DNA of 64,000 nucleotides from a virus: the IMG/VR virus record IMGVR_UViG_3300010938_000009, positions 40,284 through 104,283 of that record, one strand, 5' to 3'. Of the stretch, positions 20,716 through 46,554 are shown one piece after another (the first letter of the stretch is position 1; each line of letters starts with the position of its first letter). Below the pieces are notes generated by a model. That model worked only from the letters and a program-made list of their open reading frames with translations, did not search any database and was not told where the DNA came from. The translations under genes and the position numbers were made by a program.

Positions 20716-20718
20716 GCT

Positions 20719-21057: not shown

Positions 21058-21100
21058 ATTAAAATTCCTATAAAGTGTAAAAGATTAAAAGTATAAAGGA

Positions 21101-21678: not shown

Positions 21679-22108
21679 ATATTTTTAATGCTTTCTTTAC
21701 CTTATTTAGATAATTAAAATTAATAATTAAACCTTTTTTATTATACCTTATACTACCTGCATTATAAGCTAGTATAGCTAAGTCTATGTCTTTATACCTA
21801 GTTAACTGGTACTTTAAATATTTGGCGGCATAGTAAGCATTAGTATAAGGCTCTAATAATCCTAGTTTAGTGCCTTTATAGCCCATATCTTTAGCTGTAG
21901 GGTATTGTACCTGACATAAACCCATACTATTATGTCCATTTCCATCGTTGTAGTTAATAGCTTTAGGATTATGACTACTTTCTACCCAACATATAGCTTT
22001 AAGTACTTTACTGTCAACTCCTACTGTATTAGCAGCTTTAATTATAACGTCTGTTACAGCTAAAGCTTTAATAGATAGTAATGATAATAATATTATAGTT
22101 TTTGTCAT
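21671..22108 (-). CDS. Exported lytic transglycosylase (SLT fold)
   Basis: This 145-residue protein has an N-terminal signal peptide (TIILLSLLSIKALA) and an SLT domain: catalytic Glu in CWVESSHNP (Glu43), SMGLCQVQ, and AYNAGS. It cleaves the glycan strands of peptidoglycan. With a signal peptide it would act in the periplasm or outside, either for lysis or for local wall opening. It overlaps the FGE-like gene by eight bases and is far from the holin-like gene at 57261. Confidence 0.85.
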   Translation of the reverse strand: MTKTIILLSLLSIKALAVTDVIIKAANTVGVDSKVLKAICWVESSHNPKAINYNDGNGHNSMGLCQVQYPTAKDMGYKGTKLGLLEPYTNAYYAAKYLKYQLTRYKDIDLAILAYNAGSIRYNKKGLIINFNYLNKVKKALKIYE

Positions 22109-22114
22109 AGGAAG

Positions 22115-22174
22115 TCAATCGTTAGTTTTACCTATAATACCTATAAGTAATGTTATTACTATTAAAGTTAACAT
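22115..22174 (-). CDS. Possible 19-residue membrane peptide
   Basis: ATG at 22174 follows a GGGAGAG ribosome site and encodes a very hydrophobic peptide (MLTLIVITLLIGIIGKTND). It may be a real single-span micropeptide between the transglycosylase and the next gene; its size makes this uncertain. Confidence 0.35.
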   Translation of the reverse strand: MLTLIVITLLIGIIGKTND

Positions 22175-22201
22175 AGTTTTCTCTCCCAATGGTTTTCTAT
22201 T

Positions 22202-22609
22202 TTATCTATTATAAGAGTTTCTAATAGTTAGAATACTAGAAAATATTATTTTGTTGCGACATTTTTGAGTAGCTTTTTTTCTTATAATATTTATCATATT
22301 CTTTTTGTATTTTTTTCCAGGTTTATTACAATTTTTATAAGTTTGTAAGTTACAATATTTTAATTGAATTGACTTTTCTCCTAAAAATACATATAAACCT
22401 AATACGTTAGTAAAAGATTTTAAACCATAAGTATTAAATTCATTTGTTAAACTTTTATCTTTTTTTTCTATCTCTATATCTCTCTGTACTTTATATCTAG
22501 GATTTTTAATAGCTATATAAGTTACTAGAGTTTTAGCCACTTTTTCTTCAACAGTAACAGGAAGCTCATATAGCTCTTTAAATAAATCTAGGTTAATTTT
22601 AGAGAACAT
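22202..22609 (-). CDS. Basic hypothetical protein
   Basis: This 135-residue Lys-rich protein ends in a basic region with three Cys (CNLQTYKNC, KCRNK). It follows the metallopeptidase-VWA gene with one base between them. No family is recognised. Its N-terminus contains NLDLFKELYEL, which resembles the LY-tail motif but at the wrong end. Confidence 0.55.
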   Translation of the reverse strand: MFSKINLDLFKELYELPVTVEEKVAKTLVTYIAIKNPRYKVQRDIEIEKKDKSLTNEFNTYGLKSFTNVLGLYVFLGEKSIQLKYCNLQTYKNCNKPGKKYKKNMINIIRKKATQKCRNKIIFSSILTIRNSYNR

Positions 22610-22610
22610 T

Positions 22611-25007: not shown

Positions 25008-25010
25008 AAA

Positions 25011-26105
25011 TTAAGTCTTTCCTCTAGCCTTTTTAATAATTTCTATAATTTCTTTATCAGCTTGGAACATTTCTCTACAATTTTCTAAGATGTATAACTC
25101 ATGAAGTATGTTAAAACATAACTCTCTTGGAATAGTTTTAACAAAACCGATAATATTTTCTTCTTCTTTTTTAGTTAATTTCTTGTTACTTTTTCTTGAC
25201 TTAAGGTTATCCATTAAGTCATCACAAGTATATTTAAGTAAATCAATTCTACCACCTGTTTCAGAATTAGAATACTTTTCAAGTCTTTCTTTAAAGTCTG
25301 GAAAGTTTTTGATAATATCATTAGCTGAAATAGGTTTATCTTTATTTTTAAGTGAAGACATAAAAGCCACTGTAGCTTCATGTCCTATTAGACCATAACA
25401 TAGTTCTTGTAATAAAGGTAGTGGAGTTTTAGCGGCGATTAGTCTGTTAACGCTGTCCCAACTACGTCTACTAGGTTTAACTTCTTCTAATGTAAATTCT
25501 TCTAGTTTACTTTGAAGTAATTCAGGTTGATCTACAATAAAGTTAATTACTTCTTTAGAAAAGTTAGTGTTTTTAGCATACTCTATCCACTCTTGTACTG
25601 ATGGGGATAGTTTAATATGACAAAACCTATCCATTAAAGCTTTATCTGACACATCTGTTACTATATAATCTTCTGTATTTGGATTTTGGGCGGCGATAAC
25701 ATATACATTTTCAGGTAATGTAATAGTATGCATTTTTCTATCCAACACTAGTTGAAATACCGCTTGCAATACGTCTCTTCTAGCTCTGTTAAATTCATCT
25801 AGAAAAATAATACCATATTTCTTAGGGTTTTTATTAGCCCAATCAATTAGCTCTGTTAGCCATTTTGGAGTCATAAAAACTGTAGTTGTTTTATTGCCTG
25901 ACTTATCTGTACCAAAATCAGGTAGACCTAATAAATCTCCTACATCTTGTGTACCTAGTCTTAGGTCAACAAATTTATGTCCACCTTCCTCTGCAAACTG
26001 CTTTACAGCTTGTGATTTACCTATTCCATGATGTCCAATTACCAATGGCGCAATATTTGACTGAAACAAATAAGGTAATGCCTCTTTGAATGTACTAATA
26101 AACAT
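25011..26105 (-). CDS. MoxR-type AAA+ ATPase
   Basis: This 364-residue protein has Walker A GHHGIGKS, Walker B IIFLDEFNRA, sensor region AAQNPNTEDY and arginine-finger region LMDRFCHIKL, the MoxR order. It should form a hexameric ring that remodels protein complexes, with the VWA protein at 22611 as adaptor. The two genes are three bases apart. MoxR-VWA pairs are common in bacteria; their job in phages is not settled. Confidence 0.92.
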   Translation of the reverse strand: MFISTFKEALPYLFQSNIAPLVIGHHGIGKSQAVKQFAEEGGHKFVDLRLGTQDVGDLLGLPDFGTDKSGNKTTTVFMTPKWLTELIDWANKNPKKYGIIFLDEFNRARRDVLQAVFQLVLDRKMHTITLPENVYVIAAQNPNTEDYIVTDVSDKALMDRFCHIKLSPSVQEWIEYAKNTNFSKEVINFIVDQPELLQSKLEEFTLEEVKPSRRSWDSVNRLIAAKTPLPLLQELCYGLIGHEATVAFMSSLKNKDKPISANDIIKNFPDFKERLEKYSNSETGGRIDLLKYTCDDLMDNLKSRKSNKKLTKKEEENIIGFVKTIPRELCFNILHELYILENCREMFQADKEIIEIIKKARGKT

Positions 26106-26173
26106 AATTTTCTCTCCTTTATTTAGTCTTATTTAAAAATTTAAATCTAAGTTAAGTAGTCTAGTTCGATTAT

Positions 26174-26362
26174 CTATTTTCCTATTAATTTAATTAAAGT
26201 TTTACTTAATTTTTTAATTGTTGATTTTTTAAAAACTATTTTATTTTCAAAATTAAAGTGATTTAAACCTACATATTCTTGGTCATTAAAAATATAATGT
26301 TCTACCGATAGTTTATCATTGATTTTATATTTTTTCAAAACTTTTATTTGTTCTTGCTCCAT
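26174..26362 (-). CDS. Small hypothetical protein
   Basis: This 62-residue basic protein has alternating short strands (VEHYIFNDQEYVGLNHF) and a Lys-rich helix. No family recognised. It follows the MoxR gene in a run of very small genes. Confidence 0.5.
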   Translation of the reverse strand: MEQEQIKVLKKYKINDKLSVEHYIFNDQEYVGLNHFNFENKIVFKKSTIKKLSKTLIKLIGK

Positions 26363-26373
26363 TTTAGCCTTTC

Positions 26374-26655
26374 TTAAAAAATTATTATTTGTTCATAATT
26401 TATAGGTAATACTATAAAACCTTCTATAATCTGATTATTATAGATTATTCCATAAGTTTCATTTATATAATATTTTCTACATTTAGTTTTACCTATAACA
26501 AATAAAGGTTTAATTTCTGCAATAGGAGGTATTTCTGAATCTTTTAAAAACCTTCTTTTACTTAGATCTGTGTTATTAATATATTCTTCAAATTTAACTT
26601 TTTTCTTTTTTATGAAAAATTCTTTTATCGTTTTTAGCATTTTTAATCTCTTCAT
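26374..26655 (-). CDS. Small hypothetical protein
   Basis: This 93-residue protein has a Lys-rich N-terminus and a beta-rich C-terminal half (PPIAEIKPLFVIGKTKCRKYY). ATG 26655 has AAGGAA at good spacing; it overlaps the gene before by 62 bases. A second ATG six codons on is possible. Function unknown. Confidence 0.5.
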   Translation of the reverse strand: MKRLKMLKTIKEFFIKKKKVKFEEYINNTDLSKRRFLKDSEIPPIAEIKPLFVIGKTKCRKYYINETYGIIYNNQIIEGFIVLPINYEQIIIF

Positions 26656-26926
26656 TTTTATTCCTTGATTTAAAATAATCTTCTTTTTCTTTACGTTTCA
26701 TTTCCTGATAATACTTCATAACTTTTTCATCAGCTTTACCTCTTTTAAGAGTTTCTTCCACCTCTTTTATAGCCAGTGCCGCCATTTGTTTGCTAGGATA
26801 TAATCCACAAATAGTACCTTTATTATCTACTAAAACGTACCATTTTCCTGTAGCTTTTAAATTATACTCCGGATATTCTGTACTCCACTCACCTCTTTCT
26901 TGAATAACTAATTCTAATTTACTCAT
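26594..26926 (-). CDS. Hypothetical protein with charged tail
   Basis: This 110-residue protein has an N-terminal beta-rich half (GKWYVLVDNKGTICGLYPSK) and a C-terminal half that is almost entirely Lys/Glu/Asn. The tail overlaps the next gene's start, which may explain its unusual composition. No family recognised. Confidence 0.55.
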   Translation of the reverse strand: MSKLELVIQERGEWSTEYPEYNLKATGKWYVLVDNKGTICGLYPSKQMAALAIKEVEETLKRGKADEKVMKYYQEMKRKEKEDYFKSRNKNEEIKNAKNDKRIFHKKEKS

Positions 26927-26936
26927 ATAACTCCTT

Positions 26937-27176
26937 TTATAAGTATAGATTTTTTACTAAATCTTTATTATCTACTCTAACGCATAACTGTTCTATTTTA
27001 GTTTCATAATATCTTGCTAACTCTTTTGTTTTTACTTTAACTAGATCATAAAGATAACCTTCTTGTTTACCTCTAATTGGTAATGTTACATCTATTACTT
27101 GTAAGTAACAATTTTTATCTGATCTATAAAACATATCTCCAACTTTATATTTAGGTTTTCTTTTTTTAATATTCAT
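26937..27176 (-). CDS. KOW/SH3-like small protein with LY-tail ending
   Basis: This 79-residue protein opens with YKVGDMFYRSDKNCYLQVIDV, a small beta-barrel start, and ends NKDLVKNLYL. Both features recur in the rightward LY-tail array (compare the products at 38263 and 40016), so this is a leftward member of the same family. Confidence 0.65.
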   Translation of the reverse strand: MNIKKRKPKYKVGDMFYRSDKNCYLQVIDVTLPIRGKQEGYLYDLVKVKTKELARYYETKIEQLCVRVDNKDLVKNLYL

Positions 27177-27313
27177 ATTTCTAATCCTTCCTGTTCTAAA
27201 GTTAACATTAGATTATCTAATTGATCTTTTAATTTTATATATTCATCATGTTCAGCTTCAATCATTTGATATTCTATTTCTTCAAGTATATTAAATAATT
27301 CTATTTCTTTCAT
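27173..27313 (-). CDS. 46-residue acidic coiled-coil protein
   Basis: ATG 27313 encodes an acidic helical peptide (KEIELFNILEEIEYQM) that ends in ATATGA, overlapping the next gene's ATG. Codon use matches neighbouring genes. A ribosome site of the GAAAGG type precedes it. Function unknown. Confidence 0.5.
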   Translation of the reverse strand: MKEIELFNILEEIEYQMIEAEHDEYIKLKDQLDNLMLTLEQEGLEI

Positions 27314-27322
27314 ATATACCTT

Positions 27323-27508
27323 TCAATGTATTAACTGACTTTTAATATATTGTTCATATATCATTTTTAATTGTTCATCATCCATATTTAATAAGTCTTC
27401 TAAAGCTTTATTTTGTGCGTATTCTAATAAATCTTCTTTATCCCAAAATTCCATATTTTCTATCAATGTTTCAATCATATCATTTTTTTGTTTGTCTGTT
27501 AGTTTCAT
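27323..27508 (-). CDS. Small acidic helical protein
   Basis: ATG 27508 with AAAGG upstream gives 61 residues; an upstream TTG would lie in the protease gene. The sequence (WDKEDLLEYAQNKALEDLLN) is acidic and helical, like short phage proteins of unknown role that may mimic DNA or bind partner proteins. Confidence 0.55.
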   Translation of the reverse strand: MKLTDKQKNDMIETLIENMEFWDKEDLLEYAQNKALEDLLNMDDEQLKMIYEQYIKSQLIH

Positions 27509-28196
27509 TGTTTGCCTTTGGTGCAAGTTTTATATTAAATATTGTTTTAGCTAATTTTCCTGTATATATAGCCGTAGCCTGACTAGTACCTTCCCAACAT
27601 ACATTATAAAAACAAGATTTACCTATTTCATAGGTATGAACAATTATACCGTAATTACTTTTTTCATGTAAGGTATTATTATTTTTTAAATTACCTACTA
27701 CAATAAGATTTTTAATATTAGTGTAACAAGCAGGATATACGTCACAAGTTTTTGTTGTAAGGTTTTTACTATCATTTCCAGCACTTACTACAACTTTTAT
27801 ACCTAAATCACTAGCTTTTGATATAACAAAATATTCTTTAGTTATAAATTTCTTTCCAGATAATGATATATTAAGTAAATCTACTTTATTTATAATAGCT
27901 TTATCTACTGCTTTGTAAACTGTGCTAACGTCTTTTATATTATATTTATATATAACCAAACAATAATCTATTGTACCAAGATTTTCTACAATTGTCAAAG
28001 CTATATTTGTGCCATGTCCGTTAAAATCTCTACCAATCCCTTTTTTATTAGTTTCAAAGTCATAATGCCCTTTAGAGCAAAGTTTTATATTGCCTAATTT
28101 AGTTAAATCTAATCCAGTGTCAATTATCCCAATTTTTACTTGGGCGGCATAAACCAAATTTATGTTCAATATAAGTAATATTAATAATTTTAACAT
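27480..28196 (-). CDS. Exported subtilisin-like serine protease
   Basis: This 238-residue protein has a signal peptide (KLLILLILNINLVYAA), then the full S8 triad: Asp26 in IGIIDTGLD, His61 in FNGHGTNI and Ser in WEGTSQATA (near residue 203), plus the oxyanion Asn in VVSAGNDS. There is no visible propeptide between signal and catalytic Asp. It should be secreted to the periplasm or outside. Exported subtilases are rare in phages; possible jobs are release of progeny, cutting surface receptors or attack on competitors. It overlaps the genes on both sides. Confidence 0.9.
   Translation of the reverse strand: MLKLLILLILNINLVYAAQVKIGIIDTGLDLTKLGNIKLCSKGHYDFETNKKGIGRDFNGHGTNIALTIVENLGTIDYCLVIYKYNIKDVSTVYKAVDKAIINKVDLLNISLSGKKFITKEYFVISKASDLGIKVVVSAGNDSKNLTTKTCDVYPACYTNIKNLIVVGNLKNNNTLHEKSNYGIIVHTYEIGKSCFYNVCWEGTSQATAIYTGKLAKTIFNIKLAPKANNETNRQTKK
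28138..28148 (-). repeat. GCCGCCCAAGT repeat, copy 1 (inside protease signal peptide)
   Basis: An 11-base GC-rich string identical on the minus strand at 28138, 33398 and 33883. This copy encodes Ala-Ala-Gln-Val at the predicted signal-peptide cleavage site. Confidence 0.6.
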
Positions 28197-28420
28197 TATT
28201 TATCCTTTCTAACGTCTTTATCATCTTTATATAATAAAGTAGCTGTTTCTAAGTCAACTTTAGAACAAAACCTATTAACAAAACTAGCTGTTAAGTGTAA
28301 ACATTCGTCATTTTCTTCTTTTCTAACAAATACTACGTCATTTAAGGTATTTATAACAAAATATATCTCTTTAGTTCCTACGTCTATTATATAGTCGTTC
28401 TTTTTAAATTTACACGCCAT
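28196..28420 (-). CDS. Small beta-barrel-like protein with LY-tail
   Basis: This 74-residue protein starts CKFKKNDYIIDVGTKEIYFV, like the KxGD-type members, and has DLETATLLYKDD near its end, with a ten-residue charged extension after the LY. Its ATG lies inside the Leu-Ile-Tyr-Gly codons of the upstream gene. It belongs to the LY-tail family. Confidence 0.6.
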   Translation of the reverse strand: MACKFKKNDYIIDVGTKEIYFVINTLNDVVFVRKEENDECLHLTASFVNRFCSKVDLETATLLYKDDKDVRKDK

Positions 28421-29030
28421 AAATTAATTCCAACTCTTCGTTTTTATAAGAATCTATAACTTTTTGAATTTCATTATTTAAAGTATCTTTTTCTTTTATT
28501 AAACTGTTTAATTCTTCTTGGTAAGAGTTAACTTTAGTTTTTAATTCATTTGTTTGATTATTATAAGCAACTATTTTAGCTTTAAAAAGATCACAAGCTT
28601 GTTGATGACTCGCAATCGCATCATCAATAGCTTTGAAATGATTTGTTCTAATACCTTCTTTTTTAAGGTTTTTTAATAATATTATATTACTGCTTTTATT
28701 ATAATATTTCTCAGGGTTAAAATAAGTAATTTTAACTAATTTTTCAGGATTAAATATAATTTCAACAGTAGGACTAACAGAAATATAAAATTTAGATAGT
28801 TTTTCAACTTTAACTTTATCATTTGTTCTACTTTTTATAGAATTTAATTCCAAATTAGCAGTTTCTAAACTATTATAAACTTTAACTTTATAAAGATTAG
28901 ATTTCTGTGGAGTCATAAACATTACTTTAGTACCATAACCTTTGTATAATAAAGTTTTGCCTTGACTCTTTTTAGTTATAACATAATAGTTATTAAAATC
29001 ATAATAGTTCACTTCAAATTTAAAACTCAT
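28410..29030 (-). CDS. Hypothetical protein with coiled coil and LY-tail
   Basis: This 206-residue protein has a beta-rich N-terminal half (residues 1-110) and a coiled coil (about 125-195), ending KNEELELIYGV, the LY-tail motif. It is the largest member carrying this ending. The next gene starts inside the final codons. Confidence 0.6.
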   Translation of the reverse strand: MSFKFEVNYYDFNNYYVITKKSQGKTLLYKGYGTKVMFMTPQKSNLYKVKVYNSLETANLELNSIKSRTNDKVKVEKLSKFYISVSPTVEIIFNPEKLVKITYFNPEKYYNKSSNIILLKNLKKEGIRTNHFKAIDDAIASHQQACDLFKAKIVAYNNQTNELKTKVNSYQEELNSLIKEKDTLNNEIQKVIDSYKNEELELIYGV

Positions 29031-31648: not shown

Positions 31649-31732
31649 TTATTTCATTTTTAATTGTGTTTTAGTTTCACAACTATATGTAATATTTTCA
31701 ATTTTTATTAATTTTTTTAAATAATTATTCAT
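31649..31732 (-). CDS. Possible 27-residue basic peptide
   Basis: ATG 31732 overlaps the stop of the upstream gene (ATGA), giving a Lys-rich 27-residue peptide. No ribosome site is clear. Weak candidate. Confidence 0.25.
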   Translation of the reverse strand: MNNYLKKLIKIENITYSCETKTQLKMK

Positions 31733-32373
31733 TCTACTTCATTCCAAGTAGTATTATCATAATTCTTTGTTCCATGGTAAACTAATCCTACTTTATGATT
31801 ATCAGTCAAAGCTAGGTTATCGTCTTTACTAGCGTCAATATAACCTTGCTCTATTAGTTGCTCTAAACTCTCAAATACTCTGCTATGGCGCTCATTTTCT
31901 GCCTTAATTAAATTGTCTTGTTTACCGCCATAACTGTATATGTAGTTAAAATTTACGGGCATAAGTCCCCTATTTTCAAAGTCTTTAAAAACCTTAACCA
32001 TTTTAGTATAAGCATAAAATTGAGTACTAGGATTAAGTCTCATTATTTCTAACCATTTACTTAAATATACAGGACTATAGAAATCACCACTATCATGTAT
32101 TCTAACCCTTAAAACTTTACGTCTTTTAATCTCACTATCAATTACTTGTACAAATGAGTCACTTAGAGTCAATTGTAACCTTTCCTCAAATGCCCTAGCT
32201 ACATTACTAAATCTATATGTACCCATTGTAGCATAACAACCTTTCACGCATTTATCAGCCATAGGACAGGTAACTAGTCCAGTATTAGACTTATATGCTG
32301 GAATACCAAAGTTATAAGTTTTAATACCACTCATAGACTTAATCTTACTATTTTGAGTTAAGTAATTTTTCAT
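31729..32373 (-). CDS. Gp88-like Cys-motif protein
   Basis: This 214-residue protein has CPMADKCVKGCYA near residue 36, a C-x5-C-x3-C cluster typical of the phage gene-product-88 family, and RVRIHDSGDFYSPVYLSKW in the middle. The family's biochemical role is not known; the Cys cluster may hold iron or zinc. It has its own promoter and AAAGGAG site. Confidence 0.7.
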   Translation of the reverse strand: MKNYLTQNSKIKSMSGIKTYNFGIPAYKSNTGLVTCPMADKCVKGCYATMGTYRFSNVARAFEERLQLTLSDSFVQVIDSEIKRRKVLRVRIHDSGDFYSPVYLSKWLEIMRLNPSTQFYAYTKMVKVFKDFENRGLMPVNFNYIYSYGGKQDNLIKAENERHSRVFESLEQLIEQGYIDASKDDNLALTDNHKVGLVYHGTKNYDNTTWNEVE

Positions 32374-35127: not shown

Positions 35128-35153
35128 ATATACCTCTATTCCTTGGCTTATAA

Positions 35154-35252
35154 TTACTTAGTTCTATATAATACTGTATAACCTAAATCTAATAACTTCT
35201 CTACTGACTTCATATTCACTTTACCTACTAGTATAATTACTTTACTTGTCAT
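35154..35252 (-). CDS. 32-residue micro-protein, family A
   Basis: ATG 35252 has AAGGAAGG and a consensus promoter ending 15 bases before it. The peptide (SKVIILVGKVNMKSVEKLLD then LGYTVLYR) has a strand-helix-strand pattern shared with the product at 35536. Promoter plus ribosome site make it a convincing gene despite its size. Confidence 0.65.
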   Translation of the reverse strand: MTSKVIILVGKVNMKSVEKLLDLGYTVLYRTK

Positions 35253-35273
35253 ACTCACCTTCCTTCTAATATA

Positions 35274-35302
35274 ACTATAACCTACTAGTGTTATAGAGTC
35301 AA
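35274..35302 (-). promoter_or_regulatory. Sigma70-type promoter at 35.3 kb
   Basis: Minus-strand TTGACT, 17 bases, TATAGT. It is the last strong leftward promoter seen before the divergent region and drives the micro-protein gene and those after it. Confidence 0.8.
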
Positions 35303-35354
35303 CTATAATCGTAATAGTCAATAGTTACACAGTACCTAGTATAAGTACTTGTAA

Positions 35355-35513
35355 TTACAGTACTTCCTTAATATAACTTAATTCTAGCTCATTTATAATA
35401 TAACCTAGTCTATAACATAGGCTAGTTATATAATCAGTATGAATATAACTTGACTCAATGTTACTCATTCTAATTAAATCAATTATTGTATAACACTTAA
35501 TATAGTCTATCAT
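35355..35513 (-). CDS. 52-residue hypothetical protein
   Basis: ATG 35513 has AAGGGG upstream. The product is Ile/Tyr-rich (MIDYIKCYTIIDLIRMSN) and helical. It is not obviously related to its micro-protein neighbours. Confidence 0.5.
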   Translation of the reverse strand: MIDYIKCYTIIDLIRMSNIESSYIHTDYITSLCYRLGYIINELELSYIKEVL

Positions 35514-35535
35514 ATAATCCCCTTGTTAGTAGTAA

Positions 35536-35649
35536 CTATCTTATAATGATCTTATAACCAGCATTATAGAAGCTATCATAAGCTTGACTAGTAATGCTAC
35601 TTACTATTACTACCTTAGTTACTTTGTTTATTTTAATTATGTTTGTCAT
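35536..35649 (-). CDS. 37-residue micro-protein, family A
   Basis: This peptide (KVVIVSSITSQAYDSFYNAG then YKIIIR) matches the 35154 product in the spacing of KV(I/V)I and GYxxxxR. No clear ribosome site is present, but TATAGT lies only six bases before the ATG, so the message could be leaderless. Confidence 0.5.
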   Translation of the reverse strand: MTNIIKINKVTKVVIVSSITSQAYDSFYNAGYKIIIR

Positions 35650-35911
35650 ACTTAGACTATAGCAAGTGATGTACCAAGTATAAGTATTTGTAATTACTGG
35701 AGTGGTAGTAGTAGTAATTGTATAACTTGTAGTCGTTATAGTATAACCTATTGATACTATTCAATGTTATATTATAGTCAGTGTATAGAAGTTCTATAGT
35801 AATAATAACATAGGTTATAAGTGACACTTGTAGTTATAGTATTACAAGAAGGGGTATACGGTGTAAAAAATGACACACCCCACACCCAGGGGTACTCAAG
35901 GTCTCTTTTTT
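35650..35911. other. Divergent control region, left part
   Basis: No gene is seen in about 260 bases between the last leftward micro-protein and the rightward promoters. It carries repeated TTATA/TATAA strings and one TATAACCTA copy, and may contain further leftward promoters. Confidence 0.4.
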
Positions 35912-35967
35912 AAATTTTAAAAAAATTAAAAACGGGGCTTGACGATAGTCAAGAAATAGATTACACT
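35912..35967 (+). promoter_or_regulatory. Rightward promoter P1 with A-rich upstream element
   Basis: TTGACG, 17 bases, TACACT. A 21-base A/T block ends six bases before the -35 and is repeated identically at P2. The -35 lies in an inverted repeat TTGAC-GATA-GTCAA that could be an operator. The ATG of the mini LY-tail gene is only eight bases past the -10. Confidence 0.7.
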
Positions 35968-35974
35968 CTTCAAC

Positions 35975-36088
35975 ATGACTCAATATAATCCTGGTGATAT
36001 CCTAGAACTAACACTACAACAACATACAGGACTACCTACTCTAGTACCAGAAGCTAATAAAGTACTAATAAAACAGCTATACTTCTAA
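35975..36088 (+). CDS. 37-residue mini LY-tail protein
   Basis: ATG 35975 opens a 37-residue frame starting TQYNPGDILELTL (a PGD beta-barrel start) and ending NKVLIKQLYF, the LY-tail motif. It thus keeps the two hallmarks of the array proteins with almost nothing between them. Its ATG lies eight bases after the -10 of P1, so its mRNA would be nearly leaderless, and no ribosome site is visible. It could be a founder, a remnant or a decoy peptide. Confidence 0.6.
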   Translation: MTQYNPGDILELTLQQHTGLPTLVPEANKVLIKQLYF

Positions 36089-36330
36089 TAGCTTATTAGA
36101 GCCTCTACAATCAATTATAATACCCTTTCTACTACTAACTCTAGTCCTACTACTTACAATCGATCTAATAGCCTTCTAGGCTCTTTAAACTTACATTATA
36201 AGTACGGGGGATTAGCCGCCCCTTCTAAACTGCTAATAACTAGCATTTTCGGAAGTTAAATTGCTGTAAGTTATTGTAATTACGTAAGGGGTAGCCCTAA
36301 TAACTAGCGTTTTTAGCTAGTTACTGGTTA
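36089..36330. other. Hairpin-rich leader between P1 and P2
   Basis: About 240 bases without a gene. CTAATAACTAGC occurs twice (near 36227 and 36296), the second as part of a hairpin TAACTAGC/GCTAGTTA. A GGGG...CCCC hairpin lies near 36214. The layout suggests a terminator or regulatory leader on P1 transcripts. Confidence 0.45.
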
Positions 36331-36386
36331 AAATTTTAAAAAAATTAAAAAAATAGCTTTACAAGTCCTATAAAGTAAGCTACAAT
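36331..36386 (+). promoter_or_regulatory. Rightward promoter P2 with A-rich upstream element
   Basis: TTTACA, 17 bases, TACAAT, preceded by the same 21-base A/T block as P1 ending six bases before the -35. The leader to the first array gene is about 115 bases and includes a CCCTATA/TATAGGG hairpin. Confidence 0.75.
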
Positions 36387-36509
36387 AAGCCCTATAGCTA
36401 ATATTAAAACAATTATAGGGAGTTTGAAGTAGGGCCTTGCTACCGGACTTAGCTAATGCCTTAAAAAACGGATTAATAGTACCTTATAATTAAATAACTA
36501 AGGAGATTT

Positions 36510-36911
36510 ATGAAAAATAAGAAAGAGCCTATATTTGATAATTTTAAAATAGAACTTGGGCCTGAAATTGATAGAAGTAGTTGGAATATTACATTAAATA
36601 GCGATTCAGATTTAGGTGTATTACCTTTTAAAGAAAGAATACAACAACAAATCAAACATCATAAAGATAGCCTAGAAAAAGCTGAAGAATGCTTAAAACA
36701 ACTAGAAGCTGCTAAATATAAGGAAGGGGACGTACTTTTACATAAAACTAAAGGTAAGGTATTTGTAATTGAGGTTTATATAGATGAATATATTAAACCT
36801 GGAATTTTATATAAAGTTAGCTGTCCAGGGTTTGACAGGTTTCTAACTTACCAAGAAGAAGAATTATTACCTTTAAATGAACTTACACAAGGGTTATATG
36901 ACTCTAATTAG
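36510..36911 (+). CDS. LY-tail array protein 1
   Basis: This 133-residue protein, the first gene of the rightward array, has a helical N-terminal part with a Lys/Glu coiled coil (about 50-75), then KYKEGDVLLHKTKGKVFVI, a small beta-barrel start, and ends LNELTQGLYDSN. AAGGAG precedes its ATG. The next gene's ATG lies inside its Leu-Tyr-Asp codons. Function unknown. Confidence 0.7.
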   Translation: MKNKKEPIFDNFKIELGPEIDRSSWNITLNSDSDLGVLPFKERIQQQIKHHKDSLEKAEECLKQLEAAKYKEGDVLLHKTKGKVFVIEVYIDEYIKPGILYKVSCPGFDRFLTYQEEELLPLNELTQGLYDSN

Positions 36912-37293
36912 AACTGTTAAGGACTTAAGGGGCCTCGGCACCGAAGTCCTTAAAAAGGAATTAGAGGCTTATATAGGAATTGAACTTTATAGTAAAACTG
37001 AAAGAAAAAGCTTTATTATTGACCAAATTATTTTTAATTTAGATTTAGCTCCAAATCAATCCTATTCTGATTACAGAGCTATTGGAACTATATTTGTTTC
37101 TCCTGTCTACTTAGATAGGTTTTATATAGAAAGAGTTACTACAGTTTCAGCTAATGTACTACATTTAGAGACTTTTGATACGTTTATAGAACAAAACCTT
37201 AAACCCATGCTAGATAACTTAGTACTTGACTTTAAAACTGAGTATGTTAAACTAGATACTGAAATGGCTAAAATACTATACAAAAAGGACTAA
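36898..37293 (+). CDS. LY-tail array protein 2
   Basis: I start at ATG 36898 (131 residues), embedded in GGTTATATG at the end of protein 1, with AAGGG five bases before. The body is unlike protein 1 (KTERKSFIIDQIIFNLD, FVSPVYLDRFYIE). It ends DTEMAKILYKKD, the shared motif. Confidence 0.65.
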   Translation: MTLIRTVKDLRGLGTEVLKKELEAYIGIELYSKTERKSFIIDQIIFNLDLAPNQSYSDYRAIGTIFVSPVYLDRFYIERVTTVSANVLHLETFDTFIEQNLKPMLDNLVLDFKTEYVKLDTEMAKILYKKD

Positions 37294-37295
37294 TA

Positions 37296-37640
37296 ATGGC
37301 TATTAATAAATACAAATACTTAGAAGAAGCTGTAGAACAACTTAAACCTATTATAGCTCCTTATGTAGGTAAAACAATGTTTTGTAGAAAATATAGAGTA
37401 TTATTACAAATAGTAGAACCTAAATTAACGATATATTATAATAACCCTTATATACTTTATGCAGTTGATAATATTGATAATCTTGAAAATATTTTTGCAA
37501 TAAGTAAGTTTTACAAAGATTTTGAAGGCTATTATAAGCCTAACATAGATTTTAAGTATATTCAACATACTGTTATAACTAATATATTAAATATAGACTT
37601 TAACGACCCATTAGCTAAAGCCTTATATTCAAGGATTTAA
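37296..37640 (+). CDS. LY-tail array protein 3
   Basis: This 114-residue protein is Tyr/Lys-rich (KYLEEAVEQLKPIIAPYVGK) and ends NDPLAKALYSRI. It starts just after the previous stop (TAATAATGG). The N-terminal part (LKPIIAPYVGK) is like that of protein 4 (IQTCIQPYSKQ), hinting at a shared origin. Confidence 0.65.
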   Translation: MAINKYKYLEEAVEQLKPIIAPYVGKTMFCRKYRVLLQIVEPKLTIYYNNPYILYAVDNIDNLENIFAISKFYKDFEGYYKPNIDFKYIQHTVITNILNIDFNDPLAKALYSRI

Positions 37641-37642
37641 TA

Positions 37643-37990
37643 ATGAAAAATGAAGTATTCCAAATTATTCAGACTTGTATTCAACCTTATAGTAAACAAC
37701 TAGTTTATAGTTTATACCACCGTAAGTTTGTTTCTTGCACTTTTACTACTGGTTATAACATACGTCCGCCAGCTACCGAAGAATCAGATTACAGCTATTT
37801 ACTAACTATTACAGCTAGTTGTACTGATAATAACGCTATTTTAATACCTATACATCTAGATCTTATACTTAATAGTTTAACTCCTTTAGCAGAGGTACAA
37901 GCTAAGGTACAAACTGCCCTAGACCAACAATTTGCTATTATACCTGCAACAGAACTTAGTGAGACTCTATATGGCTTCGATAACGAATAA
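37643..37990 (+). CDS. LY-tail array protein 4
   Basis: This 115-residue, beta-rich protein (SLYHRKFVSCTFTTGYNI) ends PATELSETLYGFDNE. The ATG of the next gene lies inside its Leu-Tyr-Gly codons (CTATATGGC). Function unknown. Confidence 0.65.
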   Translation: MKNEVFQIIQTCIQPYSKQLVYSLYHRKFVSCTFTTGYNIRPPATEESDYSYLLTITASCTDNNAILIPIHLDLILNSLTPLAEVQAKVQTALDQQFAIIPATELSETLYGFDNE

Positions 37991-38273
37991 TTACGTAATT
38001 TTATATAATAAAAGGACTAAGGAGTTTTTTGAGCAAGATTGTGATAGTCCTATTATTAAAGCTATTAAAAATATTGATAATTTAAGAGATTTTCTACACG
38101 GTTTAACTTTAGCTGAATTTAATAACTATAATATAGATAGCGTAACAGGGGATGCTTTTTATCAAATTTGGCACGATAAAGGAATTACAAGTATAAGTGT
38201 AGAAGACGTTAGAAATAATAACTGGGTAGTTTTACCTAACACAGAATTAACTAAGAGTTTATATGGCCTCTAA
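37971..38273 (+). CDS. LY-tail array protein 5
   Basis: ATG 37971 is embedded in the end of protein 4 and gives 100 residues; an ATG upstream would overlap further without a ribosome site. It ends NTELTKSLYGL, nearly the same as the tail of protein 4 despite a different body. Confidence 0.65.
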   Translation: MASITNNYVILYNKRTKEFFEQDCDSPIIKAIKNIDNLRDFLHGLTLAEFNNYNIDSVTGDAFYQIWHDKGITSISVEDVRNNNWVVLPNTELTKSLYGL

Positions 38274-38493
38274 CCTAAAATTTAAGGTCGGCGACATCAT
38301 TTGTAATAAAAAATATCCAGGACTACTACTAGAAATAATAAATATTAACTGTTACCTAGACGGTTGTTATTATACAGTAAGGTTATTAAAAGAACTTTTT
38401 GAAGTACCTTTTAGACAAGAACAAGCAGAAACAGAGTATGAATTAGTTGCTAATGAAGAAGCTATAACCCTAAAGTTATTATATGATAAGTAA
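38263..38493 (+). CDS. LY-tail array protein 6, beta-barrel type
   Basis: This 76-residue protein starts LKFKVGDIICNKKYPGLLLE, a KOW/SH3-like opening, and ends NEEAITLKLLYDK. Its ATG lies in the Leu-Tyr-Gly codons of protein 5 (TTATATGGCC). Confidence 0.65.
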   Translation: MASNLKFKVGDIICNKKYPGLLLEIININCYLDGCYYTVRLLKELFEVPFRQEQAETEYELVANEEAITLKLLYDK

Positions 38494-38725
38494 TTATAAA
38501 GTAGGTAGTTACTTATTAGATAATAAGAAGGAACTATTTGTTATAACTAGTATTAATATTATAAACGATACTATTAGTACTGTAGGTATTACTAGGATTA
38601 AAGTGCCTACTTATAATACTACAGTTGTTAGTATAGAGGGTAGTATTGTAAGTTTAACTAGTAGAAACTATTTTCAAGTAGTACCAGAACAGGATGTAGA
38701 GTTAACGGAATTATTGTATAAATGA
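38483..38725 (+). CDS. LY-tail array protein 7, beta-barrel type
   Basis: This 80-residue protein starts SNYKVGSYLLDNKKELFVIT, clearly like protein 6, and ends DVELTELLYK. Its ATG lies in the Leu-Leu-Tyr-Asp codons of protein 6. These two are the closest neighbours in the array and look like a tandem duplicate. Confidence 0.65.
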   Translation: MISNYKVGSYLLDNKKELFVITSINIINDTISTVGITRIKVPTYNTTVVSIEGSIVSLTSRNYFQVVPEQDVELTELLYK

Positions 38726-38732
38726 GGTCTTA

Positions 38733-38837
38733 ATGGACTTTTCATGTTTACCACCATTAAGCCCAGGATGGGATCACCTCTGTTTTGAGCAGAAGGTTTA
38801 CATTATACATATTTCAGCCCATAATAGGAGTTTATGA
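38733..38837 (+). CDS. Possible 34-residue peptide in the array
   Basis: ATG 38733 follows GAGGT and encodes a 34-residue peptide (MDFSCLPPLSPGWDHLCF) whose TGA overlaps the next ATG (TTATGA). It fills the only sizeable gap in the array but has no LY-tail, and its base use differs from its neighbours. Confidence 0.4.
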   Translation: MDFSCLPPLSPGWDHLCFEQKVYIIHISAHNRSL

Positions 38838-39100
38838 ATAGAGTATCAAAATATATTAATACTACAAATAAAACGATTATAGAGCTAAATAACTATGTTT
38901 TACAAAGCTTTAGAGAAAAAGTTCAAGCTTTAAGTTTGAATTCTGACCCTTACCTTTTAAAAAACTACTTATCTCAACAAATTAAGGTTTTTAAACCTCA
39001 ATCTAATTGTAAGGAATATTATTCTATTGAACAATTATTGAATGATTTCAAAGAGTTAACTCCAGAAGAGGAAGCTATAGCAACTTTATTATATGAATAA
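38834..39100 (+). CDS. LY-tail array protein 8
   Basis: This 88-residue, largely helical protein (NLYNN-poor, Lys/Asn/Leu-rich: YLLKNYLSQQIKVFKPQ) ends PEEEAIATLLYE. AGGAG precedes its ATG. The next ATG lies in its Leu-Leu-Tyr-Glu codons. Confidence 0.65.
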   Translation: MNRVSKYINTTNKTIIELNNYVLQSFREKVQALSLNSDPYLLKNYLSQQIKVFKPQSNCKEYYSIEQLLNDFKELTPEEEAIATLLYE

Positions 39101-39353
39101 ACCTCAATATTATACCTATGAAGGTACTTTATTTAAATTAATACATTTTAACAGTTTAAATTCTTGTTGCCTTATGTTAGGCTTAAATAAAAATAGCCTT
39201 AAAACCTACCCTATAGAGTATATAGAAACTTATTTTGAGCCTTTAACTAATTACGATGAAAGTATGATAGACTTACTTTATGGTAAAAAGGACGCTGCGG
39301 AAGCCGTGCATGATCTATGTCATCAAATTCTAACAAAACACTTAAAAATCTAG
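39093..39353 (+). CDS. LY-tail array protein 9, extended tail
   Basis: This 86-residue protein has ESMIDLLYGKKDA at residues 58-70, then a 17-residue extension (EAVHDLCHQILTKHLKI). It is one of two members whose LY motif is not terminal. The extension overlaps the next gene's start and may come from loss of an earlier stop. Confidence 0.6.
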   Translation: MNKPQYYTYEGTLFKLIHFNSLNSCCLMLGLNKNSLKTYPIEYIETYFEPLTNYDESMIDLLYGKKDAAEAVHDLCHQILTKHLKI

Positions 39354-39589
39354 AAGGAAAGTGGTTCAAACCTATTTTTGGACAGTTAATATATAAGGGC
39401 GAAAATACTAAAATTTACATTTCTGACCCTTTTCTTATCAAACGCCTTATAAGAACTAATCCTTACCGAGGTGACGAGTTCTTAGTAAAAACGCTAAATC
39501 CCAATTACCCCGAAGTTATAATAGTATTAGATATGATGCTATTAGAACCTTATGAACCTACCGAATTAGAAAAACTACTCTATTCTTAA
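39317..39589 (+). CDS. LY-tail array protein 10
   Basis: This 90-residue protein (LEGKWFKPIFGQLIYKGEN) is beta-rich and ends YEPTELEKLLYS. It overlaps protein 9 by 37 bases. Function unknown. Confidence 0.6.
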   Translation: MSSNSNKTLKNLEGKWFKPIFGQLIYKGENTKIYISDPFLIKRLIRTNPYRGDEFLVKTLNPNYPEVIIVLDMMLLEPYEPTELEKLLYS

Positions 39590-39593
39590 TCTT

Positions 39594-40016
39594 ATGCTAA
39601 CTTTCCTTAAAATATTTTATAATACAGGTCTAGGTATATTTTACGCTGTAAATAAACTTATTTCTATTAAAAATTACTTTAAATTTCAAATACTTAGGTT
39701 ATTTTATTATATATTAATAAAAACTAAGGGTAAAGCTTTTCCTGAATTTAAAACTGGAGAATATTGTTTTTATTTAGATAGAGATAAAAAAGAACTTATT
39801 CCTGTTGAAATATTAGATTTACGTTGGGAATATAATGAAAACTATGAAATCTACGTTAAAGGTAATTATAAAAATCTTATAGGTTACTATATAAAAGATT
39901 TAAAAATAACTAATAATAGTCAATTATGGGGTAAATTAGCCTACCCTTACGACTTATTAAAAATAAACGACGAAGAACTAATAGATATACTAAAAACTCT
40001 GTATAAAAGGGATTAA
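39594..40016 (+). CDS. LY-tail array protein 11, hydrophobic N-terminus
   Basis: This 140-residue protein starts with an aromatic, hydrophobic region (MLTFLKIFYNTGLGIFYAVN) that may associate with a membrane, then has a beta-rich part (KTGEYCFYLDRDKKELIPVE). It ends ELIDILKTLYKRD. It is the largest protein of the array. Confidence 0.65.
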   Translation: MLTFLKIFYNTGLGIFYAVNKLISIKNYFKFQILRLFYYILIKTKGKAFPEFKTGEYCFYLDRDKKELIPVEILDLRWEYNENYEIYVKGNYKNLIGYYIKDLKITNNSQLWGKLAYPYDLLKINDEELIDILKTLYKRD

Positions 40017-40273
40017 TGTTTAAAAAAGGCGATTTCATTCACCCTATAGAAGAACAGGTAGAAGCTTTAATAACTACGGGCAAAAGTCAGTATATTCTAC
40101 TTTTCGGGCCTAAAAATATATTTATAGTTCACAGTTTTAATAAATGGCACTTGATATTTCAGTATTTAGATGATAAAACGACTTATATTGAAGGTTTATA
40201 TACTAAGTTCAAACTAGTAGAAGACCCAACTCAATTAGAACTACTACAGGCGTTATATGGACAAGATTACTAA
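40016..40273 (+). CDS. LY-tail array protein 12, beta-barrel type
   Basis: This 85-residue protein starts MFKKGDFIHPIEEQVEALIT and ends PTQLELLQALYGQDY. Start overlaps the previous stop (TTAATG). The next ATG lies inside its Leu-Tyr-Gly codons. Confidence 0.65.
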   Translation: MFKKGDFIHPIEEQVEALITTGKSQYILLFGPKNIFIVHSFNKWHLIFQYLDDKTTYIEGLYTKFKLVEDPTQLELLQALYGQDY

Positions 40274-40574
40274 AAGATACGGAGAATACCAAGGCACTAT
40301 TTACGAAATCGTAGGTTACGGTTATTGTAGATTTTGTACTCCTGGTAATGAAAGTCTTTACGAAGGAAATGTTCTGTGTTTTCAACTAAAACCTCTTATT
40401 AGAACTAACCCTAAATCTATTACTACAACTACTACTTATCATGTAAGTGGTGATGCTGTTAGTCATACTGCTACTTATTATCCTAATAGTTCTTTCTACG
40501 TAGAAGAGACTTCAGTTACTGAAATAGAAGACCCTTCTACTATAGAGGCTCTTAACGTATTATATAACCTATAA
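40257..40574 (+). CDS. LY-tail array protein 13
   Basis: This 105-residue protein is Thr/Tyr-rich in its second half (SITTTTTYHVSGDAVSHTAT) and ends PSTIEALNVLYNL. Its acidic lead-in (EIEDPSTIE) resembles that of protein 12 (VEDPTQLE). Confidence 0.65.
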   Translation: MDKITKRYGEYQGTIYEIVGYGYCRFCTPGNESLYEGNVLCFQLKPLIRTNPKSITTTTTYHVSGDAVSHTATYYPNSSFYVEETSVTEIEDPSTIEALNVLYNL

Positions 40575-40601
40575 TAACTCTAATAACAAGTATAACCTTT
40601 T

Positions 40602-40901
40602 ATGCATATACAACTAATGTATGAAATGATGGAAGCTGTGTACGATACCTACAAAGATGTAGAAAATACTAGCTTACTAAAGTTTCCTATAAATACTACT
40701 AATACTATAAAAGATTTTAATATAGACGATCATGCTATATGTTGTTATAGTATAGGTAATTACGTTATAGTAGGTTATAATGTAAATAAGTTAGTAGTTC
40801 GTAATATAGAGAAAGGTTATCTTGTTTGCATTTCTCCACGTTTTTTAAAAGTGGTTGAGGACAAAACAGAGCTTTTTAAAGCTATTTACGGTAAAAAGTA
40901 A
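40602..40901 (+). CDS. LY-tail array protein 14, last of the array
   Basis: This 99-residue protein ends VEDKTELFKAIYGKK, with Ile replacing Leu before Tyr. Start is uncertain: ATG 40602 has no clear ribosome site and ATG 40617 is possible. It closes the array before the 650-base gene-free region. Confidence 0.6.
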   Translation: MHIQLMYEMMEAVYDTYKDVENTSLLKFPINTTNTIKDFNIDDHAICCYSIGNYVIVGYNVNKLVVRNIEKGYLVCISPRFLKVVEDKTELFKAIYGKK

Positions 40902-41547
40902 CTATTTTTAAAAATATTTGGGTTTACTTTGTATATACTTTTGAGGGTATAGTGAGAAGTCTTTTTTGATTATGCGTGGATATTAATTAATGTTAGTTTC
41001 TTTAAACAATTAATTATACCGTTAAATTAAAAAACAAGTGATTTTAGTTAGTTATATTAAACAAATCACTTAATAAACTAATTTAACTAAAGCTCTACAA
41101 AAGAGCTTTAGTAGTACAGTTACTAACTAGTTACTAATATTATAAAGTTACTAGTTAATAAAACAGTCATAATAATATGACTCAAAAAAATTACTTATAA
41201 GTACAATTACTTAATAGTAAATACTACAGTAATATAACATAAAGATTGAATTTAAGTTATAATTGTAATAATAAGTAAAAGCTTAGTTTTTGATTTTACA
41301 TAAGTAGAGAATACAGCCTCTCACCCTTATATAGAGGGCTTTGAATTTCCGAACTGATAAGATTAATTATTAAGTTCCTATTACCTGAATTTTTTAATAT
41401 GAACGGATATTAAAGGTTTTGACGGTAATACGGCCTCCGTTACTAGAGAATTCCCCGATTCTCTTTATAAGGTTAAGTTTTTCCTAATAAAAAACTATAT
41501 ATATATCGGGGGCTTTATTAGCCCCCTTATTATACCGAGGAGTAAAT
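40902..41547 (+). other. Gene-free, hairpin-rich region before the virion genes
   Basis: No gene is seen in 646 bases. Inverted repeats include AAGTGATTT/AAATCACTT (near 41034-41070), AAAGCTCT/AGAGCTTT (near 41090), AGTCA/TGACT (41165), a GCC-TCT/AGAGGGC pair (41320) and AGAGAAT/ATTCTCT (41443). TTGAAT, 17 bases, TAATAA at 41246-41274 is a weak promoter candidate. The region may hold the late promoter, a structured RNA or a packaging or replication signal. Confidence 0.5.
41505..41531 (+). terminator. Hairpin terminator or attenuator just before the late genes
   Basis: GGGGGCT and AGCCCCC form a perfect seven-base stem with loop TTATT, followed by TTATTAT. It lies about 20 bases before the ATG at 41548, leaving room only for a ribosome site. 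Confidence 0.75.
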
Positions 41548-41790
41548 ATGGTAAATAAGAAGGTAAAATATACCTGTAAAAATTGCAATTGGCAAACTTC
41601 TATAAGAGTTGAATGGGCTGATTTACGCCCAAAAAGATGTATGAACCGTAAATGCAATATTAGTTTTCTAAAAAACCCAGACTCCTTATTAATTGAGTTA
41701 CCAGAAGAAATAAAGATAGCTCCTGAAAAGAAGACTAAAAAGTCTAAAAAACAAGAAGAGCTACAAAAAGAAGGTGAACCTAATGAGTAG
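41548..41790 (+). CDS. Small zinc-finger protein ahead of terminase
   Basis: This 80-residue protein has YTCKNCNWQ and RCMNRKCNI, four Cys in a zinc-finger layout, and a Lys/Glu-rich tail. GAGGAG precedes ATG. It may bind DNA or act in packaging together with the small terminase; this is inference from position. Confidence 0.7.
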   Translation: MVNKKVKYTCKNCNWQTSIRVEWADLRPKRCMNRKCNISFLKNPDSLLIELPEEIKIAPEKKTKKSKKQEELQKEGEPNE

Positions 41791-44415: not shown

Positions 44416-44643
44416 ATGAAACAAGTTATTATAAGAAAAAATAGAAGATTTATTATAAACGAGGAACAACTAAAGCCTCAAGCTAACAAACCTGACATTT
44501 GTAATGCTCTTTATGCGGCTATTTATAGAGAATTTTTAGGAGCGAGTGAAAACCCTAAATACAAAGATTTAACGCCCATAGATAGATTAAACAAATTAAA
44601 TGAGTTTGCCTTAGATTGGCTTAAAAAAAGAGGGTTAGAATAA
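44416..44643 (+). CDS. Small hypothetical protein
   Basis: This 75-residue basic helical protein (FIINEEQLKPQANKPDICNA) starts directly after the previous stop. No family recognised. Confidence 0.5.
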   Translation: MKQVIIRKNRRFIINEEQLKPQANKPDICNALYAAIYREFLGASENPKYKDLTPIDRLNKLNEFALDWLKKRGLE

Positions 44644-45386: not shown

Positions 45387-46531
45387 GAATATATCGGCCT
45401 TCGCTTTAAGTAATTAAAGAGTTATGATGCGACAAGACGAATTAAGATAAGTTCGTCGGTAACGAAAGTTACAAAAATAATATAAATAACCACAAAATGT
45501 TATCTGGTTAGACTTAGAGTAAGACAGTTTCGTAATCCTGAGAAAATTTAAAAACTGTTTACTGAGTCTCTAAAATGGGGTGAATTGCTGGAAACTCCTA
45601 AAACTCACATAGCTACAAAGTAAATCGAAAGATTAAGCTTGACATGCTAGAGAATATGTGAGATACTCCTTAAAAGGTGTAATGGATAATCAGCAGCTAA
45701 GCGTAGTAGGGTTTAAGTTACTGCGAAAGTTCAACGACTAGAAGGTGAGTCCCAACAATAAGTCCTTCCTGAGAGTGCCCGATCCTGACCGAGTAAAGTC
45801 GAAGGATAAGATATAGTCTACTCCTATTTGAAAAAAGAGGTATATGATTAACGTAAAAAAATTAAAAAGTTCCGAATTAGATTCCGCCATATATGGTATG
45901 ATTCTAGGTGATGGATGTATACAAATGGCTAGTTCTGGAAAAGGAAATAGCAATTTAAAAATAGGACATTCAATAAAACAAGAAGAGTATTTAAAATGGA
46001 AACAAGAGATTGTAAATCAAATTGGAACGGTAAAAACTAGATTTTGGTATTATCAAAAACAAAACGCTTGTTATATAGAAACCAACACTAGAAACTACTT
46101 TACTAAATTAGAAAAAATATTTTATATTAACAGAAAAAAAACTATTAATAAAAAAATATTGAATAAATTAACAGATTTATCTTTAGCTATATGGTTTTTA
46201 GATAATGGTTATATGAGTTATAATAAATCTGGTTCTGTTTACGGAGAACTCTGTACAGATCAATTTAGTTTAGAAAAAGTACAATTAATAAAAGATTGGT
46301 TTAAAATTAAATTTAATATGGAAGTTGGTATTAGAACTTTACGATATTTAAGCGGCAAACAAAAAGATACTATAGCTTATAGAATAAAGTTTAACAAAGA
46401 AAACTGTATTAAATTAACAGAAATAATTAAACCTTATGTTAATCAAGTGAGTTGTATGCACTATAAATTATACGAGAATAAAATTGCTTCTCAGGCAGTA
46501 GAGAAATCTTCTGTGCAAAAATCTGTTATTG
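45387..46531 (+). ncRNA. Group I intron in the portal gene
   Basis: Conserved core elements appear in order: P (AATTGCTGGAAACTCC, near 45583), Q (AATCAGCAGC, near 45688), R (GTTCAACGACTAGA, near 45729) and S (AAGATATAGTC, near 45808). P1 forms between exon GAAGGT and intron GCCTTC (45397-45402), a six-base pairing with the required U-G at the splice site. The 3' end is a G at 46531 (or 46534), both in frame. The intron is about 1,145 bases and carries an endonuclease gene beyond the core. Confidence 0.9.
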
Positions 46532-46554
46532 AAGCAACAGATACTACCACTTAA
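45844..46554 (+). CDS. Intron-encoded LAGLIDADG homing endonuclease
   Basis: This 236-residue protein has two LAGLIDADG helices, YGMILGDGCIQM (near residue 20) and LAIWFLDNGYMS (near 120), as in single-chain enzymes. AAGAGG precedes its ATG. Its stop codon lies about 20 bases beyond the intron's 3' end, inside exon 2, so the full protein can be made only from unspliced RNA. It should cut intron-less portal alleles and spread the intron. Confidence 0.9.
   Translation: MINVKKLKSSELDSAIYGMILGDGCIQMASSGKGNSNLKIGHSIKQEEYLKWKQEIVNQIGTVKTRFWYYQKQNACYIETNTRNYFTKLEKIFYINRKKTINKKILNKLTDLSLAIWFLDNGYMSYNKSGSVYGELCTDQFSLEKVQLIKDWFKIKFNMEVGIRTLRYLSGKQKDTIAYRIKFNKENCIKLTEIIKPYVNQVSCMHYKLYENKIASQAVEKSSVQKSVIEATDTTT

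Follow-up and report, generated by a model that had tools for sequence, protein, structure and literature searches.

Why would 14 neighboring phage genes with mostly unlike products finish on the same few residues? The question is raised by an uncultivated virus, IMG/VR record IMGVR_UViG_3300010938_000009 (104,283 bases), of which bases 40284-104283 form the stretch of 64,000 nucleotides analyzed here, hereafter the window. At positions 36510-40901 the window holds 14 consecutive plus-strand genes that share a C-terminal Leu-Tyr or Ile-Tyr tail. As set out below, this tail behaves as a separable protein module, is confined to one phage clade and may serve to dock its carriers on a common partner. 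A limited search of the open-access literature returned no description of a comparable clade-wide C-terminal tag.

The shared ending and the phages that carry it

An earlier note, made from the letters of this DNA, had described a rightward array of 14 genes with a common LY ending, and this description holds. All of the array genes (14/14) carry an [LI]-Y tail, with the tyrosine 1-5 residues before the C-terminus in 13/14. The strict motif [LIMVA]xxx[LI]Y, no more than 6 residues from the end, is found in 12/14, whereas 5000 shuffles average 0.49 matches and never exceed 5. Mean pairwise identity within the array is 41% for tail octamers and 6% for random body octamers.

Gene 1 (36510-36911, 133 residues) joins a helical N-terminal part and a KxGD barrel to the tail NELTQGLYDSN, in whose LY codons lies the ATG of gene 2 (36898-37293, 131 residues, TEMAKILYKKD). 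Genes 3 (37296-37640, 114 residues) and 4 (37643-37990, 115 residues) end in DPLAKALYSRI and TELSETLYGFDNE, respectively. The LYG codons of gene 4 contain the ATG of gene 5 (37971-38273, 100 residues, TELTKSLYGL), whose own LYG codons contain that of gene 6 (38263-38493, 76 residues, KxGD barrel type, AITLKLLYDK), and the LYD codons of gene 6 in turn contain that of gene 7 (38483-38725, 80 residues, KxG barrel type, VELTELLYK). After 108 nucleotides follows gene 8 (38834-39100, 88 residues, EAIATLLYE), which has no barrel signature and holds the ATG of gene 9 in its LYE codons. Gene 9 (39093-39353, 86 residues) continues past its motif ESMIDLLYG, so that the tyrosine stands 23 residues from the end. 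Genes 10 (39317-39589, 90 residues, TELEKLLYS) and 11 (39594-40016, 140 residues, IDILKTLYKRD) are followed by gene 12 (40016-40273, 85 residues, KxGD barrel type, LELLQALYGQDY), with the ATG of gene 13 (40257-40574, 105 residues, IEALNVLYNL) in its LYG codons. Gene 14 (40602-40901, 99 residues), an N-terminal helix, a five-strand barrel and the tail TELFKAIYGKK, is the last of the array, 646 nucleotides ahead of the next start. The starts of genes 2 (36898) and 5 (37971) are corrected ones, the mechanical open reading frame starts being too long.

Relatives were collected with the major capsid protein as query, which gave 53 loci, and pieces of the related records were read; all of these phages are uncultivated IMG/VR entries, several genomes are partial, and genes were called mechanically. 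Selection by motif score gave 126 tail proteins, which fall into 91 body clusters at E<1e-3 (counts that describe this chosen set). The consensus is hydrophobic, P, x, [TGS], E, L, [AG], [KE], A, [LI], Y, [GE], or roughly T-E-L-A-K-A-L-Y-G. Among 164 terminal sites, anchored on the tyrosine with no conditioning on flanks, position -6 is E in 46, -5 is L in 55, -3 is K or E in 93 and +1 is G or E in 95, with A, V, I or L at -2. No comparable flanking preference is found at 557 internal [LI]Y sites, where flank information is at most 0.09 bits, compared with up to 0.9 bits upstream and 1.1 bits at +1 for terminal sites. The tyrosine is now and then swapped for F and stands 0 to 6 residues from the terminus, although some proteins have motif matches 9-45 residues from the end; the terminal residue itself varies (G, E, K, D, L, S, N and others). 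High-scoring sites in tail-bearing phages are C-terminal in 119 cases and internal in 37, whereas in sister phages the numbers are 1 and 10. Chance composition as the cause is ruled out by the shuffles together with the expectation from internal windows.

The occurrence of [LI]Y in the last 7 residues of small proteins was compared with expectation across the relatives. Nine phages show an excess with z of 3 to 14 (G000, G001, G002, G003, G008, G009, G013, G014 and G015); the excess is weak in G010 and is not found in G012. The phage of the window has 24 such proteins where 8.1 are expected. The extreme case is G009 (35 vs 5.1 expected), whose 34 tail proteins nearly all lie on the minus strand and fit the pattern [TSG]-E-L-x-[EK]-A-[IL]-Y; when the exact DNA pattern for ELGEAIY was sought in viral contigs, terminal copies occurred only in G009. 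Proteins of over 220 residues in the nine phages show no excess, nor do the small proteins of sister phages G005, G006 and G007 (8/462 vs 18.8 expected). By capsid protein identity, loci at 70% or above have 50 terminal sites against 19.3 expected, and loci at 48-67% have 6 against 6.0. The 80 gp88-bearing control loci (from L129 on) mostly show no excess (63 vs 56.5 expected), in a pool that includes one G009 locus and whose high scorers are clade members. The tail is thus the mark of one phage clade, missing from its sister lineage and from unrelated phages; the sister phages and most of the 80 gp88 loci rule out a generic phage feature. The earlier note had warned that unrelated proteins might end in the motif just as often; no excess appears in large proteins or in other phages. 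A search of bacterial genomes with the capsid protein, aimed at a host, gave no lead; nor did the terminase as single-protein query in viral contigs or small barrel proteins against phage isolates.

Protein signal and gene joint

The repeated overlap of LY codons with the next start admits a simpler explanation, in which the tail is merely the translation of a Shine-Dalgarno site and an overlapping ATG (TTATATG) that serve the following gene, and has no function as a peptide. The ATG of the next gene does lie inside the Tyr codon (TAT-G) in 67/126 tail genes, and of the 82 tails with TAT-G, 67 use it as the next start. Furthermore, codons at -3 to -1 in G009 are near-uniform (GAG/AAG, GCT, ATT), and from its codons this [KE]-A-I segment reads as the Shine-Dalgarno site of the following gene. 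The joints at L076 and L077, both of G009, run ...[GA]AG-GCT-ATT-TAT-GAG-TAA, in which the tail end, what is likely a Shine-Dalgarno site and the start of the following gene (ATG-AGT-AAA) coincide. With a Shine-Dalgarno site in the tail codons and the next ATG in the Tyr codon, tail, stop and next start would therefore form one compact gene-to-gene joint.

However, the codon bias of G009 is limited to those three positions. The E and L codons at -6 and -5 vary freely and lie beyond the ribosome-binding zone, and in the phage of the window the tail-position codons follow genome usage. Whether the next gene overlaps the tail, starts nearby or does neither, the motif is of similar strength, and it is undiminished in 31 tail genes without a near downstream start, 17 of which encode the tyrosine as TAC. 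(Genes with no overlap show a mild TAC preference, 28/53 vs 20 expected, p=0.03, which is too weak to lean on.) Moreover, overlaps of 5-26 nucleotides join 108 gene pairs in the tail-less sister phages, yet almost no LY is found among the ends listed. Taken together, TAC use, non-overlapping genes and sister-phage overlaps rule out a pure ribosome-binding-site artifact as the main cause; the explanation is already largely refuted, and we regard it as highly improbable. The tail is selected as protein, and gene overlap is a second use of it, not its cause.

Bodies, dialects and a putative docking role

If the tail is a protein signal, it could be either a tag on unlike bodies or the last helix of a single fold. 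The bodies had been called dissimilar, and in the array no pair matches below E=0.01 (all pairs, Z=14); the two carriers modeled by AlphaFold2, on the other hand, are both small SH3-like barrels, so the claim stands for sequence and less so for fold. Many tail proteins have a KxGD start, and weak body-body scores within the array (0.012-0.03) hint at a shared barrel ancestry. A Pfam search of the tail proteins gave no convincing match, and a PHROG search gave weak matches only (best E=8e-4, unknown function). The modeled carriers are L076:8591-8833, from G009, and window gene 14 (40602-40901). The former is an SH3-like barrel with a predicted local distance difference test score (pLDDT) of 86 and the structural neighbors L21e, Mib repeat and KOW. 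The latter has an N-terminal helix, a barrel at pLDDT 83-89 with PWWP and KOW as neighbors, and a tail helix below 50.

It is therefore conceivable that the carriers all come from one SH3-like barrel family whose last helix is conserved while the bodies have diverged past recognition. Both models, with their SH3/KOW/PWWP-like barrels, and the weak scores within the array fit this, as does one body cluster in which G009 supplies 14 of the 15 barrels. In addition, hhalign joins A2 and A5 across the last strand and the tail, and the G009 model places its tail helix with confidence (pLDDT about 87).

Several observations point the other way. The tail also occurs on L060:3089-3295, whose body resembles the L7/L12 C-terminal domain (Pfam E=1.2e-4, below the curated cut-off; PDB L7/L12 chains matched); this protein ends in PNTAMAKQLYE, and its tail is the only part that hhalign aligns with the barrel profile. 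Conversely, the two modeled carriers have the fold of small SH3/KOW-like phage barrel proteins, but two homologous barrels outside the clade are without the tail. L118:8609-8968 shares its barrel with the minus-strand window gene 26937-27176 (RYTETRINTDC vs RYYETKIEQLC) and then diverges, and L104:391-1065 has the G009 barrel (FHPDWL). The helix of gene 14 is placed without confidence. Finally, a helix needed for folding would be expected to track the body and not, as described next, the genome. The last helix of one common fold, which the earlier note had named as the finding that would undo its idea, thus may describe part of the set, namely many SH3-like barrels and one confident helix, and we consider it unlikely as an account of the whole. 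The tail behaves as a separable module on bodies of more than one fold. The idea of a tag on unlike bodies is supported by its C-terminal placement (119 vs 37), its restriction to the clade, its presence on an L7/L12-like fold and its absence from barrel homologues outside. Within the clade the tail persists as bodies drift: orthologues of genes 1, 13 and 14 in related phages keep it at 20-31% body identity, including those of gene 1 in G001, G002, G009 and G014, and all six distant orthologues of gene 13 have an LY or LF end.

Tails also differ by genome. Among proteins with non-homologous bodies, tail similarity (BLOSUM62, positions -7 to -2) is 7.99 within a genome and 2.11 between genomes (p=0.001), and homologous bodies in different genomes score 4.15. 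A difference of 2.54 (p=0.0005) remains once G009 is left out. Genome-specific tail dialects therefore exist, an example being the preference of G010 for W or F at -5. Dialects of this kind would be expected of tags that co-evolve with a partner specific to each genome.

We propose that the tail is a putative C-terminal docking peptide for one common hub, the likeliest of the readings considered here, at about even odds. The tail would form a short amphipathic helix, with T, S or G as N-cap, then E-L-x-[KE]-A-[LI]-Y and often G as C-cap. Appended to many small accessory proteins, this helix could recruit them to one common partner, so that host-takeover or counter-defense proteins might be brought to a machine of the phage or of the host, and the dialects would reflect co-evolution with that partner. 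A working analogue comes from phage T4, in which gp43, gp55 and gp33 carry interchangeable C-terminal sliding-clamp-binding motifs (PMC2988020, PMC7892883). There, as here, a short hydrophobic and acidic C-terminal segment is common to unlike proteins; the T4 carriers, however, are few and have known roles in replication and transcription, whereas here they are tens of small accessory proteins. Because the phage's own family A polymerase (4542-7721) ends in ...SDNWAESK, without the tail, we have not assigned the tail to the clamp-binding family.

A phylogenetic profile for the partner yields three small candidates (41548-41790, 44416-44643 and 19037-19294), confounded by shared ancestry. The first two, both on the plus strand and candidates by profile only, are a Cys-rich protein of 80 residues and a protein of 75 residues, each present in 8/8 tail-bearing phages searched and not detected in tail-less ones.

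Several points weigh against docking. A conserved copy of the motif in a core or head protein, which would have pointed to the partner, was looked for and not found. Since the tail helix of the G009 model is confident, it could be part of that fold, and since many bodies are of one barrel type, the pattern may owe something to common descent. The dialects, in turn, could stem from duplication or recombination of tail-coding DNA, which is most plausible for G009 with its near-uniform codons at -3 to -1.

Tail genes across the genome and what the tail may mean

The window has 30% GC and encodes a tail sheath, the family A polymerase and a DnaB-type helicase; Rfam and tRNA scans gave no lead. The array had been presented as the feature itself, and all 14 of its genes do carry the tail, but the same phage has at least eight tail genes outside it, six on the minus strand of the window (19284-29030) and two elsewhere in the record (L003:13149-13526 and L003:14734-14943), as well as one very short open reading frame. 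The six are 19284-19544 (RLAKELYGD), 19541-20098 (EMLESLYL), 20719-21057 (EMDKLLYLK), 26937-27176 (DLVKNLYL; the barrel with the tail-less L118 homologue), 28196-28420 (ETATLLYKDDKDVRKDK) and 28410-29030 (ELELIYGV), the last of which contains in its tail the ATG of 28196-28420. The short frame (35975-36088, plus strand) encodes 37 residues, YNPGDIL...NKVLIKQLYF, a barrel-like start and a tail with hardly any body, and is possibly a 15th array member or a relic. With carriers on both strands and beyond the array, the tail is a property of small accessory genes in general.

Amid three of these genes, at 20101-20640 on the minus strand, lies a sigma-70 region-4-like factor that is conserved in tail-bearing phages, with weak matches in two tail-less phages. 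The AT-rich flanks of the array (35128-36509 and 40902-41547) contain no long genes, the short frame aside, and likely hold divergent and late promoters. Other minus-strand features of the window include a VWA/DUF2201 protein (22611-25007) split by a LAGLIDADG endonuclease, which a weak resemblance to intein splicing marks as probably an intein; a MoxR-like AAA ATPase gene (25011-26105) adjoins it. Also on this strand are a class I aminotransferase/alliinase-like protein (7729-8775, Pfam E=6e-19), unusual in a phage, and a GP88 family protein (31729-32373, PF17338, E=1.7e-40), which occurs in 278 viral stretches and is conserved, with no function assigned. On the plus strand, a protein with a GDG-type motif (45844-46554) overlaps the start of the next large gene, has homologues in some relatives only and is possibly a homing endonuclease. 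Elsewhere in the record, L003:14159-14536 (minus strand) encodes a small membrane-anchored protein with a CxxCH heme motif (NKTCTHCHNS) that looks c-type cytochrome-like.

Immediately downstream of the array, and sharing its strand, come the terminase and head genes, an arrangement consistent with a packaging signal by which the carriers would enter the prohead and later be ejected into the next host. A precedent is found in the T4 internal proteins IPI, IPII and IPIII, which are likewise small, unlike and hypervariable and share one short terminal signal, a capsid targeting sequence (PMC9026906). That signal, however, is N-terminal and is cut by gp21, whereas the tail is C-terminal and not known to be cleaved, and many of its carriers are outside the late-gene region, on the opposite strand with replication genes. 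Furthermore, when core and head proteins were scanned for the motif, no scaffold or capsid protein had a conserved match. We therefore judge packaging to be distinctly unlikely.

The window also encodes a ClpP-like protease (9072-9881, minus strand; PF00574, E=3.5e-28), and a second one with an apparent signal peptide is found at L003:18836-19720 (minus strand; phrog_94, E=5e-17). The tail might accordingly be a degron that shortens the life of early or accessory proteins via Lon, ClpXP or the phage ClpP. Tails do sit at or near the C-terminus of small proteins, the phage does encode a ClpP, and the LY end resembles the LYH end of the Lon degron of SulA and Smg. The C-terminal degrons of these Lon substrates (x-L/I-L/I/V-H or LYH; PMC11986505) are, like the tail, short hydrophobic signals with LY near the end. 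They require a terminal histidine, however, whereas the tails end in varied other residues, have an acidic E-L lead and place LY at a variable distance from the end (0 to 6 residues, with some matches 9-45 residues away). None of the listed tails has an LYH end, and identity with the Lon degron was rejected. The phage ClpP, which the earlier note had offered as a protease that might target the tail, is not supported as its reader and was likewise dropped. ClpP is present in G000-G003 but also in G007, which has no tail, and it went undetected in G005 and G006, which have none either. This distribution does not fit; nor need the motif sit at a free C-terminus. All told, degradation seems quite unlikely as the role of the tail.

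Returning to docking, a bolder extension would be a plug-in accessory proteome, in which any small protein that gained the tail was recruited to one phage-specific hub, while the tail DNA doubled as the ribosome-binding site and start of the next gene and so let new genes slot into the operon. We offer this extension as tentative and consider it doubtful, if less so than the fold, packaging and degron alternatives.

Phages hold a large reservoir of host-takeover and counter-defense proteins, without readable function, in their small hypervariable genes. Use of the tail as both a protein tag and the start of the next gene is an unusual form of overlapping coding. If the docking reading is true, the shared tail would make some 14 to 35 such proteins per phage accessible to biochemistry at once, one pull-down could name the machine on which they act, and the dialects would make the co-evolution of tag and receptor testable.

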